64,000 nucleotides of DNA, from contig JAQGOL010000034.1 of NCBI GenBank assembly GCA_028293625.1, positions 1 to 64,000 on the forward strand. The letters run 5' to 3'. Under the pieces are notes generated by a model, which searched no databases, was not told the origin of the DNA, and was given only the letters and a program-made list of their open reading frames with translations. The stretch is from Chthoniobacteraceae bacterium (GTDB taxonomy: Bacteria > Verrucomicrobiota > Verrucomicrobiia > Chthoniobacterales > Chthoniobacteraceae). This document shows positions 28,063-50,712 of the stretch, piece by piece (the stretch's first letter is position 1; each line of letters begins with the position of its first letter). The position numbers were made by a program, and so were the translations under genes.

Positions 28063-28217
28063 AATCAGGCCTAAACGAGGTCGGAGAAAAGCATGCCGCT
28101 CTTCGTCTGCTCAATCGACTGCCAGGAACCGATTGCTCGATTGCAGTGAAAAAAATGGAGCGTGCTTGCAGCGGGTTGACGTTTGATTACAGCAATGCCA
28201 ACACTGCTTTGGACCTC

Positions 28218-29372
28218 ATGAAAATATCTGAAATCGCTACTGCGTTCTATCACAACAGTCCGGAACATAACTTTCAACAACTCCGGACCCTGATTTCGGG
28301 CGACAACCGGAAAACCATGGCCGTTTCCGGAGAAGATGAAGCGGCGAATTCCGTCATTGGCGACATCCTCGAGGCTGAGACGTTGCCCGAGATTATGAAT
28401 TACGTTCTCAAAAGATTTCCCGGCCGAACCGCGGTTCTGCTGGGCGACCGAGCTCAACTTGAATCATGGCGCGCTGCCATACGGACGGTGGACTTTGAGA
28501 CTATTGAATGGGATTGGAATATCTCCCTCAAAGAACGGGAAGAGTTGCTCGATAAAACGATTGTCCTCTGCCGGGTGGCGGTTCGGCCGGAAGAGTGGGA
28601 AACCATCTCGGAGCTCAAGCAAACACACGGCGAACGGCTCGTCACCATTACCGAATTGCTCCTTCCCTTCACCAACATCGCATTCCTGCAGAAACGGCTG
28701 AATTACTTCGTCTCATCTTTTGATGCAATTATCCGCTATTACTTCGGACTGACCGACTTTACGCCATTCGCCAAGTTGGAGCAGGCTTATAGTCTAAAAG
28801 ACCGGCGCGTCATTGAGTTTGGCCCTTTTGATGGCTGCCAAACGGCGGGCATCGTCAACTACGGGGCGCGAAGCGTCGATTGCATCGAAGCGCGCGCGGA
28901 AAACTCCGCCAAAACAATGGCGGCGGCGCATGCGCTTGGATGGAGGAATGTGCGCGTATTGATGGATGATTTCCACAATGTCGATGCCGTGCGATACGGG
29001 ACCTATGACCTCGCTTTTGCCCATGGCGTTTATTACCACAGCATTGCGCCATTTCTGTTCCTGCGGAATTTGATGTCCCTTTCCGACAACATATTCCTAG
29101 GTGGTTTCTGCGCGACGGAAACCCGGCCCGACGTGCCTTATACTCTCTTGAATTATGAGGGGCAATCGTACAAGGCGAAGAAATACGTCGAAGGAAATAG
29201 CTTTGTCTCAGGCGTAAACCCGTATGGCTATATTTTCGACAAGGACGATCTAATCCGTTTCTTCAGCGAACGTGACTACAAAGTCACTGTGATCTCGGAA
29301 CACGCCGTGCCAAACGCCCGGACCTATACCCAAGGCGGGATTTTCCTGCGTTTTCTGGCGCAGAAAATCTAA
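28218..29372 (+). CDS. Class I SAM-dependent methyltransferase
   Basis: 384 residues if started at ATG 28218; the frame is open from GTG 28146, so up to 24 more residues are possible. The C-terminal half carries the methyltransferase fold: motif I VIEFGPFDGCQTAGI, the acidic end of strand 2 in VDCIEARAENSAK, then RVLMDDFHNVD and YDLAFAHGVYYH. The N-terminal ~200 residues (AVLLGDRAQLESWRAAIRTV, LVTITELLLPF) form a separate region that may be a second, degenerate Rossmann-like unit. The final part contains GGIFLRF. The substrate cannot be deduced; similar proteins occur in glycan and small-molecule clusters, but neither is present here. Confidence 0.75.
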   Translation: MKISEIATAFYHNSPEHNFQQLRTLISGDNRKTMAVSGEDEAANSVIGDILEAETLPEIMNYVLKRFPGRTAVLLGDRAQLESWRAAIRTVDFETIEWDWNISLKEREELLDKTIVLCRVAVRPEEWETISELKQTHGERLVTITELLLPFTNIAFLQKRLNYFVSSFDAIIRYYFGLTDFTPFAKLEQAYSLKDRRVIEFGPFDGCQTAGIVNYGARSVDCIEARAENSAKTMAAAHALGWRNVRVLMDDFHNVDAVRYGTYDLAFAHGVYYHSIAPFLFLRNLMSLSDNIFLGGFCATETRPDVPYTLLNYEGQSYKAKKYVEGNSFVSGVNPYGYIFDKDDLIRFFSERDYKVTVISEHAVPNARTYTQGGIFLRFLAQKI

Positions 29373-29436
29373 GACAACCAACGGACCTCGGAATTGTTCT
29401 CTTTTGAGATGGGCGAGCCAACCCAAACCGTTTCTT

Positions 29437-29853
29437 GTGAAAGCAGCATTGTTTAGCTTCTATTTCTGTGTCTTCGCATCTCTATCGCAGGCTGCCAGCC
29501 AGTTTGAAGAGACGTTGAGACTTGCTCATTCGACCGCGGCCAATGACAGAGTGACAGCCGCGTTTGCGCTTCCGGACCTCATTCGGACTCTTGGCGTTCA
29601 GGCAGTTGCCCCCTCCTACTCGAAGCTCCTCGCTGACTCTGACAGCGATGTTGTTATCGAGACACTTGCTGCTATCAGACGCACACCGGATCACGTGACT
29701 TTCCAAGGCAAACGTCAGGAGATACGACCAATGCTTGATACGCTGATGCCGCGAGTTCGCGAGCTGTGTGGAAATCTGGACCCAATCACGCTTCAGGCCG
29801 CGCGCGAGACTCGAACACGGATTCGCGCAGCAATATACAGAAGTCGTAAATGA
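29437..29853 (+). CDS. Small exported HEAT-like protein
   Basis: About 138 residues from GTG 29437 (an open TTG at 29404 is less likely). The N-terminus KAALFSFYFCVFASLSQAAS is a signal peptide. The mature protein is helical and includes AAFALPDLIRTLGVQAVAPS and KLLADSDSDVVIETLAAIRR, which look like one or two HEAT repeats. Function unknown. The following lipoprotein starts 21 bp downstream, so the two may be co-transcribed. Confidence 0.55.
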   Translation: MKAALFSFYFCVFASLSQAASQFEETLRLAHSTAANDRVTAAFALPDLIRTLGVQAVAPSYSKLLADSDSDVVIETLAAIRRTPDHVTFQGKRQEIRPMLDTLMPRVRELCGNLDPITLQAARETRTRIRAAIYRSRK

Positions 29854-31103: not shown

Positions 31104-31871
31104 TCACAATTCAGGTGCGGCGGCAGTTGACGCAGCCGGTTGGAGTAATGCCTGTGCGTGAGGCGGCGCCGGTTCGGCCGGATCGGGGGCGCTTGAGCCG
31201 TGGCCCAGGTTGATGATCTTGCGGGCGTTGAACCAGTCGCTTACAAATGTGGAGCCTTCGTCCGTGACGGCGAAGCTGGTGACCAGGTGGTCGAGATGCT
31301 CATCATAAAGCGCGTCGAGCGCGGAGGAGCGCAGCAATAACTTTGCCGTGGCGCTCTTGCGGCTGGCGAGTGCGGCGCGCGGTTTGCCCAATGCTTCGTC
31401 ATACGTTTTGAGGTCGGTTTCCAGCGAGCTATAGGTCGCGGGATTAATGCCGTAGTCGTCATCGAGCGCCGATTTCTGCCTGGTCAGCGGCTTCAGCAGG
31501 CTGAGGACAATTTGCGCGATCTGGGAAAGGGCGGCATCGCGCGAGTTGCGGAGATCGGACGCAGTGAAGTTGACTTTGGTTAAGCTGGTTTTGTCTTTCT
31601 TATCGGCAAAATAGCTGCACATCGGGCCTGCGACATTGAGAATGGACCCGATGAGGGTTTCCTGGGCAGCATCCTTATCAAGGACAATCCCCGCCAGGTC
31701 GGAATTGTGGATGGCGGCGAGGCGTTCAAACTCCGCCACGCCGGAGATCAACTCCGCCATCTTCTTACTGAAAGCCCTTGGTTTCTTGTCTTTCCAGATC
31801 GGTTCATTGGCTTCGCCAACGCGCAGAACGGCATGATGGGAGTTGAGCTTGTTTTGGAGGTCGTTGTTCAT
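31104..31871 (-). CDS. Hypothetical helical protein next to a 21-bp repeat array
   Basis: 255 residues, mostly helix-forming, opening MNNDLQNKLNSHHAVLRVGE and IWKDKKPRAFSKKMAELISGV. No signal peptide, membrane segment or catalytic motif is visible. The tail (SAPDPAEPAPPHAQALLQPA) is Pro/Ala-rich and disordered. The body has the look of a helical bundle with regularly spaced Leu/Ala (ALSQIAQIVLSLLKPLTRQKS, RKSATAKLLLRSSALDALYDEHLDHLV). Its start lies about 220 bp from a long 21-bp-phased A-tract array that fills the upstream region. I do not recognise the family. Confidence 0.65.
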   Translation of the reverse strand: MNNDLQNKLNSHHAVLRVGEANEPIWKDKKPRAFSKKMAELISGVAEFERLAAIHNSDLAGIVLDKDAAQETLIGSILNVAGPMCSYFADKKDKTSLTKVNFTASDLRNSRDAALSQIAQIVLSLLKPLTRQKSALDDDYGINPATYSSLETDLKTYDEALGKPRAALASRKSATAKLLLRSSALDALYDEHLDHLVTSFAVTDEGSTFVSDWFNARKIINLGHGSSAPDPAEPAPPHAQALLQPAASTAAAPEL

Positions 31872-32094
31872 TGTATTGATGGCACGGGCGTGCTTGCTCC
31901 CTAATAGGAAATCGCAACCGGAGTGAACGCCCTAGAAAGGGGTCAGGGAGGACAAAAAGAGCGCGAAGAAAAGAAGCTTGCGGCTTTGGTTAATCCTTCT
32001 GGCGAAGAGTATTTACTTCGGGTTTTCCAGGCTCTGCGATTTCCGGCGAATGGTTCCAGGGCGGGCTGACAAGGTTCCAACGTAGCCTGATGAC

Positions 32095-32310
32095 AAAAAA
32101 TCGACAGCAGATATCAAATCAGAAAGAACCGTGTAGGGAAAAGCAACAGCTGCTAACAAAAAAGCGGGCGCCGGGAGGAAATCAACTCCGGGCCATGACA
32201 AAACACGAAGGCTTGAAGTCAAAAAAGGAAGAGCTTTGCTGAAAAAATCAAAAGCTGTGTAGCAAAAAACGACGCCTGTTCTCAAAAAAGCGAACGTGCA
32301 AAGCGGAAAA
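32095..32310. repeat. Degenerate 21-bp tandem array with phased A-tracts
   Basis: Runs of three to six adenines begin at 32095, 32116, 32139, 32158, 32179, 32200, 32221, 32242, 32264, 32284 and 32300 or 32307, nearly always 20-22 bp apart. Between the A-tracts the units share GC-containing positions (for example AAAAAAGCGGGCG and AAAAAACGACGCC) but vary. Two helical turns per unit would put all tracts on one face and bend the DNA. The unit length is a multiple of three, so the minus strand is open across the array (32285-32013) with a heptad pattern (FDFFSKA, VDFLSSG). That is a by-product or a very odd peptide. The array fills the divergent region between the 255- and 185-residue genes. The rest of 31872-32489 holds nothing recognised. 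Confidence 0.7.
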
Positions 32311-32489: not shown

Positions 32490-33047
32490 ATGCTCTACGC
32501 CCTTCAAGCCGACATTCCAGGCCCCCATCATCGTACCTACGCATGGTGTTCGTCGCTGAGTGACAAGCGCTATATGTGCCGCCGATTGCCCGACGGGAGG
32601 GAGGAACTGGTTGGGTTTCCAATGACACCCCGGGCTCGATTTGAGGGCGGCCGCACGTGGCCGGATGTTTCCGCCAACGGCGGTGGAGTGCCGAAGCTTC
32701 TCTTTAGCCAGGCCGCGATCGACATTCTTCGGCATTACGACCCGAAAGCCAACGTCTCTGAGCCAGCGGAGGTGACCTATGAAGCCAACAAGAGCCTAAT
32801 CAAGAAAGGGCCGCCCGTTTACCGAACATTCATCCCAAGGACAATCGTTCCACGACAAATGCTTGCTCCGGATGCGGATCGGCCCGCGATTTTCGCCTGC
32901 TCGGATTATCTCTTTCTTCTTGGCTGCAACGAGTACGTAAAGATGCACTTCGAGAAGGCCAGACTGCGGAACGTGCAATTCACACCATTTTTCGAGAAGT
33001 TGGCGATATTCGATGAAATGAACGGGAGAGATAACCGTCGCAAATAG
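32490..33047 (+). CDS. Imm11/DUF1629-like immunity-type protein
   Basis: 185 residues, cytoplasmic. The C-terminal part IFACSDYLFLLGCNEYVKMH with FEKARLRNVQFTPFFE follows the end of the Imm11 (DUF1629) immunity family, where a (I/F)xxSDxFKxxxExxxLxGxxFxPv pattern closes the domain. The N-terminus (YALQADIPGPHHRTYAWC) is less conserved. Such proteins usually sit beside a polymorphic toxin; no toxin gene is visible nearby, so it would be an orphan. It starts at ATG 32490, about 180 bp after the A-tract array. Confidence 0.5.
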   Translation: MLYALQADIPGPHHRTYAWCSSLSDKRYMCRRLPDGREELVGFPMTPRARFEGGRTWPDVSANGGGVPKLLFSQAAIDILRHYDPKANVSEPAEVTYEANKSLIKKGPPVYRTFIPRTIVPRQMLAPDADRPAIFACSDYLFLLGCNEYVKMHFEKARLRNVQFTPFFEKLAIFDEMNGRDNRRK

Positions 33048-50470: not shown

Positions 50471-50659
50471 CCCTCGCCTGTTCCCCTCAGGCGACTTCCC
50501 ATCCAATCAACACCCACTCCTATTCGAGGAATACGACAGCCTGTTGATGGAACAGAATCGCCTGTTCGTGGAACAGGATGGCCACTTGAGCCAACAGGAT
50601 CGCCTGTTCACCGAACACGATCACCCATTCACCGGACACGATCGCCTGTCTGCGACACA
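50471..50659. repeat. 21-bp tandem array with palindromic units
   Basis: Nine tandem units of exactly 21 bp begin at 50471 and step to 50639. The consensus is CGATCGCCTGTTC, three variable bases, then GAACA. The best units are 50534-50554, 50555-50575, 50597-50617, 50618-50638 and 50639-50659; those before 50534 are degenerate. Several contain inverted repeats, for example CTGTTC-GTG-GAACAG (50562-50576) and TGTTC-ACC-GAACA (50605-50617), all on the same helical face. All frames tested stay mostly open because the unit is a multiple of three; the minus frame gives a 57-residue heptad string (HEQAILF, GEQAILL), which is unlikely to be a real protein but cannot be excluded. No spacers, so not CRISPR. 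The rest of 50277-50712 holds nothing else recognised. Confidence 0.75.
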
Positions 50660-50712
50660 GCAAAACCCTCATCCGCTCCGAAGCGTGCAGCTTCATCAGG
50701 CCGCCGCTCGCG

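Follow-up and report, generated by a model that had tools for sequence, protein, structure and literature searches.

In a window of 64,000 nucleotides from a Chthoniobacteraceae bacterium (positions 1 to 64,000 of contig JAQGOL010000034.1), we found that an intergenic array of adenine runs spaced 21 bp, or two helical turns, apart belongs to a class of arrays that recur upstream, and in no detected case downstream, of the genes of two orphan protein families. The explanation that we favor, to which we give slightly less than an even chance, is that the window array would be a noncoding upstream cis-element acting as double-stranded DNA, a putative protein-binding platform for regulation. This explanation draws on the periodicity, on the lack of a coding signal, on the lack of RNA structure in the window array, on a register that is conserved between copies, and on the finding that arrays of the two orphan families stand upstream only.

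The array in the window and its sister copies

The array is held by a dispersed element and precedes a gene for a helical protein, as follows (window coordinates):

32053..32300, plus strand: dispersed element of about 248 bp holding the array; 68-77% identity to two other copies, no internal gaps, alignment lost abruptly outside
32071..32108, plus strand: conserved 5' box AAGGTTCCAAC(N5)CTGATGAcAAAAAATCgACAGC, partly before the array (three-copy alignment)
32095..32310, plus strand: A-run array at 21-bp spacing, ten clear units and one weak (run positions; lag-21 autocorrelation)
32131..32273, plus strand: higher-order repeat within the array, GTGTAG(G/C).. twice, 126 bp (6 x 21) apart (three-copy alignment, columns 79-95 and 205-221)
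32278..32293, plus strand: conserved 3' end GTTCTCAAAAAAGCGA (three-copy alignment)
31104..31871, minus strand: 255-aa helical orphan protein (family A), with the array upstream of its start codon (ORF list, homologue set, structure model, linkage test)

A sequence-only reading of this DNA had described adenine runs beginning about every 21 bp, with a strict period, in at least ten units. We confirmed the runs by mapping ten starts, at 32095, 32116, 32139, 32158, 32179, 32200, 32221, 32242, 32264, and 32284, and a weak eleventh at 32307. Deviations of 1 to 2 bp are compensated, so that the overall register is exactly 21; the word strict suits this register and is slightly too strong for the individual units, because several tracts are AAA or AAAA only. 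The A-autocorrelation at lag 21 was 60, against a mean of 39.8 in dinucleotide shuffles, and lags 63 and 42 ranked next. None of 2000 shuffles reached the observed value at lag 21 and one of 2000 reached it at any lag from 5 to 69, so the periodicity survived the comparison with shuffled composition that had been proposed as a means of refuting it. The run positions and the autocorrelation together show that the A-tracts are helically phased.

The array is intergenic and probably noncoding and lies approximately 224 to 440 bp upstream of the start of the 255-aa ORF; a consensus promoter was looked for near it, and none was found. The sequence-only reading had placed it between divergent genes, next to a hypothetical helical protein of 255 residues. 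The leftward ORF (31104-31871, minus strand) is present as described. Its divergent partner is doubtful: Pfam gave no match for the 185-aa ORF reading rightward (32490-33047), and a codon-usage gene caller did not select it, which leaves a divergent promoter region unproven.

A pattern and DNA search of the 6.83-Mb genome (G000) returned three copies of the element: the one in the window (C32), C9:40196-40442 on the plus strand, and C27:34807-35052 on the minus strand. Their alignment spans 244 columns, has no internal gap, and shows 23-32% divergence. Columns in the A-tract phase of the array were invariant in 50 of 60 cases, compared with 69 of the 139 remaining columns. Since the three copies show neither gain nor loss of units, the A-tracts cannot owe their persistence to ongoing slippage, and selection on phase would be the simpler reading. 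Both sister copies adjoin genes other than those of family A, and the gene beside C9 has no close orthologue in the genus. With a sequence-only model of the element, no fourth copy was found in G000 and no convincing match in 212 other genomes of the order, where some of the weak matches were other 21-bp arrays; no match to the 5' box turned up in the contigs of other genomes or the viral contigs searched.

A class of 21-bp intergenic arrays and the genes beside it

A pattern of five AAAA runs spaced 21 bp apart, sought in 213 genomes of the order, matched many times, with different spacers, in a subset of the genomes. In that subset, matches at 24-bp spacing were few: the pattern matched, for example, 77 times at 21 bp and once at 24 bp in genome G007, and 53 times and not at all, respectively, in G044. 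In viral contigs, the A-run pattern had 33 matches at period 20, 55 at period 22, and at least 120 at period 21, an excess that may be part coding. For a census of tandem arrays irrespective of A-runs, we took 1.47 Mb from three genomes, chosen regardless of arrays except that the window's own contig was included. Among the 25 intergenic degenerate arrays, the period was 21 in 16 and 42 in five, with single cases of 9, 14, 27, and 41. The periods of genic arrays were 9, 15, 18, 24, 30, 33, 39, or 42, never 21, and block-shuffled sequence gave zero arrays in the same census. In the sampled relatives, intergenic tandem arrays have hardly any period other than 21 bp (21 or 42 bp in 21 of the 25).

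The repeat unit is peculiar to each array, and many arrays are without an A-tract. Unit palindromes are significant in about 40% of the class, and RNA folding is good on at least one strand in over 60%, the window array not being among the latter; with about half of the class showing such palindromes and folds, the class may be mixed. Within a single genome, some arrays recur as dispersed copies that include flanking sequence. The window itself holds a second intergenic 21-bp array at 50491-50682, without A-tracts, whose unit is near GCCTGTTCGTGGAACAGGATC and is palindromic every time. In genome G019, two different arrays are each followed by a dispersed element (L172:8691-8860 and L174:7960-8128), about 170 bp long and made of short hairpins with GTAG/CTAC tips. 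At four loci (L149, L151, L162, and L169), A-arrays and T-arrays face one another within one intergenic region. To the right of the array near 1690-1989 at L145 (genome G010) lies a 1072-aa ORF about 1.1 kb from the array; its start, FDVGHSSIGWAV, is one that we take to be Cas9-like.

Comparison of paralogous arrays indicated that the register is conserved. The arrays before two paralogues in G019 (L027 and L028) align gap-free over approximately 270 bp, while the far flank needs many gaps; substitutions amount to 24% over the whole alignment. In G017, the sole gaps between C216 and C217 are of exactly 21 and 42 bp. Internal differences in both pairs are substitutions or whole-unit indels only. 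The other compared pairs are consistent or less clean: gaps are confined to the far left flank in C108/C116 of G044, and a few gaps in C3/C12 of G007 are not unit multiples.

We gathered 17 family A homologues by protein similarity alone and applied one rule to all genes alike, counting an array where the best period among 12-39 in 900 bp was 21 with a score of at least 44 of 84. An array was found upstream of 12 of the 17 genes and downstream of none of them within 900 bp, compared with 23 of 1018 background genes upstream and 19 of 1018 downstream (Fisher p = 1.6e-15 for upstream placement). Leaving out the window gene gives 11 of 16; five of the 17 genes have no detected array. The linkage recurs in another order (L538 and L544, genome G474). 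Units before different family A genes are unrelated and mostly non-A, except that the close paralogues L027 and L028 share theirs. The family is patchy, occurring in 6 of the 387 genomes sampled from the phylum, and a synteny comparison found no homologue of the 255-aa gene in the genus. Homologues lacking arrays throughout, which the sequence-only reading had named as the refuting outcome of a search of relatives, did not occur. The link between array and protein that it had proposed stands as upstream placement, but not as a fixed one-to-one module, given the unrelated units and the other genes beside C9 and C27.

Family A has no meaningful match in Pfam, NCBIfam, or PADLOC. Its AlphaFold model is a confident all-helical bundle (pLDDT 88), which resembles the McpS, PilJ, and TorS sensor domains in the PDB at generic bundle level only (best Foldseek E 0.1; VIA Z 9); this likeness is at a level common for helical bundles, and no function was drawn from it. 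No DNA-binding family or fold was recognized for the 255-aa protein.

Clustering of the proteins beside other arrays yielded two further families: family B, of about 210 aa with helices and a fibronectin type III (FN3) match, and family C, of 325 aa with two members. In a similarity search over the order, 19 of 30 family B loci had an upstream array and 0 of 30 a downstream one (p = 1e-21 against background), and 11 of the 30 genes had no detected array. Four of the 30 loci were the seed found through arrays; without them, the counts are 15 of 26 upstream and 0 of 26 downstream. Outside the order, an upstream array was present at 4 of 12 family B loci (L580, L581, L588, and L589), replicating the linkage between array and gene. 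Family B is as patchy as family A (likewise 6 of the 387 genomes). For both families, then, the class lies upstream of the gene, as a regulatory operator array does. Neither family is evidently DNA-binding. A plasmid or phage origin was rejected, no protein match having been found for either.

Among the matches listed for named genomes, A-tract 21-bp arrays occur in many phyla; about half of these lie inside ORFs and some are 7-bp repeats, and families A, B, and C were not detected beside the A-tract arrays in contigs from other phyla. Other small orphan proteins that recur and match no Pfam family adjoin A-tract 21-bp arrays in Tannerella (L251 and L241), in Nostoc and Planctomycetaceae (L289 and L265), and in Flavobacterium and Chryseobacterium (L206 and L214); in the latter two pairs, the gene has its 3' end toward the array. 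We treat such parallels beyond the phylum as a lead only.

Weighing the explanations

The sequence-only reading had expected the array to curve the DNA strongly and had raised a nucleoid-organizing role; on this account, intrinsically curved DNA would shape the nucleoid or offer a platform for bending. In a wedge model with Bolshoy parameters, the predicted bends of C32, C9, and C27 were 126, 110, and 134 degrees, compared with about 66 for shuffles, and among unit lengths from 16 to 26 the predicted bend was greatest at the real 21 bp. Against this, 18 of 300 shuffles bent at least as much as the window array, whose predicted curvature ranked 56 of 3189 windows; the arrays at L172, L160, and window position 50491 were predicted to be nearly straight, and most arrays before family A genes have no A-tract basis. 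Curvature is thus plausible at the window locus under this model and not general to the class, the emphasis on A-tracts fitting the former rather than the latter, and as a full account we consider it rather improbable. (The most curved stretch predicted in the window, 29101-29461, overlaps the end of ORF 28146-29372, not the array.) Scarcely different in our estimate, and if anything a shade lower, is transcription of the array into a repetitive leader RNA, with units that would be bound by an RNA-binding protein or would attenuate expression of the downstream gene. Placement within about 80 to 570 bp upstream of the start and the roughly half of class arrays that outfold shuffles would agree with it, but RNA gives no reason to expect a period set by the helical turn, and the window array folds slightly worse than shuffles on both strands (fold z about +1) and matches no Rfam family at threshold, on which grounds we rejected a structured RNA there. 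We give hardly any credence to a gene or pseudogene encoding heptad repeats, for which 21 bp would be seven codons and for which a plus-strand ATG frame and a minus-strand frame do stay open across much of the array. The differences among the three copies are spread evenly over codon positions; stops interrupt both frames in at least one copy, as they do every frame of several other arrays, and no 21-bp arrays lie inside called genes.

A functionless minisatellite, in which a 21-bp segment, its size set by the copying mechanism, multiplied through slippage or unequal exchange and was then left to decay, is unlikely in our view, while carrying more weight than these. It would account for units peculiar to each array, for the gains and losses of whole units, and for arrays dispersed together with their flanks. 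It does not predict that arrays before two protein families should be upstream only, that indels should be avoided inside arrays while the flanks gather them, that A-phase columns should be conserved though the three copies exchanged no units, or that genic arrays of the same genomes should have other periods. Three dispersed copies with sharp edges, and other arrays dispersed with flanks, might instead point to a nonautonomous, MITE-like mobile element that happens to hold a minisatellite, as in BrickBuilt; but we saw no terminal inverted repeats at the edges of the three copies, compared by eye only, the same period occurs in unrelated arrays, and the upstream linkage is left unexplained, making this a very improbable account.

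In the cis-element reading that we prefer, a short core repeated every two helical turns would present all its copies on one face of the helix. The array may then be a multisite platform on which a DNA-binding protein, either a nucleoid protein or a dedicated regulator, would assemble cooperatively and so set the expression of the adjacent gene, and the adjacent helical protein may be merely the regulated product. The window array has an A-tract as its core, and intrinsic bending may accordingly contribute there; since the core differs at other loci, same-face spacing and not curvature would be the common principle. A purely regulatory upstream role does not explain the arrays that lie between convergent genes or beside unrelated genes.

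More doubtfully, two-turn arrays may make up, together with small orphan proteins of the helical or FN3 kind, a bacterial genetic module that has so far gone unrecognized, in which each gene would have its own freely evolving unit and only the 21-bp register would be conserved, multicopy in some genomes, patchy in the phylum, and with possible parallels in other phyla. No description of 21-bp intergenic arrays in this group was found in the open-licence literature searched, which is weak evidence of absence. A cis-element defined by helical spacing alone, with a free repeat sequence, would be unusual, as most known arrays are recognized by sequence. The arrays also offer a handle on orphan families, of which A is without annotation and B has an FN3 match only, and the idea that same-face arrays serve as sequence-flexible platforms for regulation or assembly in bacteria becomes directly testable.

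Comparison with known systems

Phased A-tract, or curved, DNA (reviewed in PMC4060949) resembles the window array in its helically phased A-runs and predicted curvature. It differs in that the spacing here is every two turns, not one, and in that an A-tract basis is lacking in most arrays of the class, several being predicted straight.

Plasmid iterons likewise consist of direct repeats that follow one another at about two helical turns, as with the 21-bp period in the window, and lie immediately upstream of a gene, and Rep-like proteins do stand beside arrays in the same pattern scan: at L242, L268, and L307, arrays lie directly upstream of related proteins that resemble plasmid replication initiators, and these are probably ordinary iterons. 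In contrast, the neighbors of the arrays studied here are not Rep proteins, the units are degenerate and vary from one related gene to the next, and the loci are dispersed over the genome. At the window, the family A neighbor has no Rep match, the contig is 289 kb, and the element has three genomic copies, which does not describe a plasmid replicon with its Rep gene.

BrickBuilt is a MITE of Porphyromonas gingivalis with a 23-nt minisatellite, inverted-repeat ends, and reported promoter activity (PMC4596501). Both systems are intergenic and dispersed and carry direct tandem repeats of about two helical turns, the three minisatellite-bearing copies in G000 being a likeness of this kind. However, BrickBuilt has one 23-nt unit and inverted-repeat ends, whereas here the period is 21, the units vary, and the arrays are tied to protein families.
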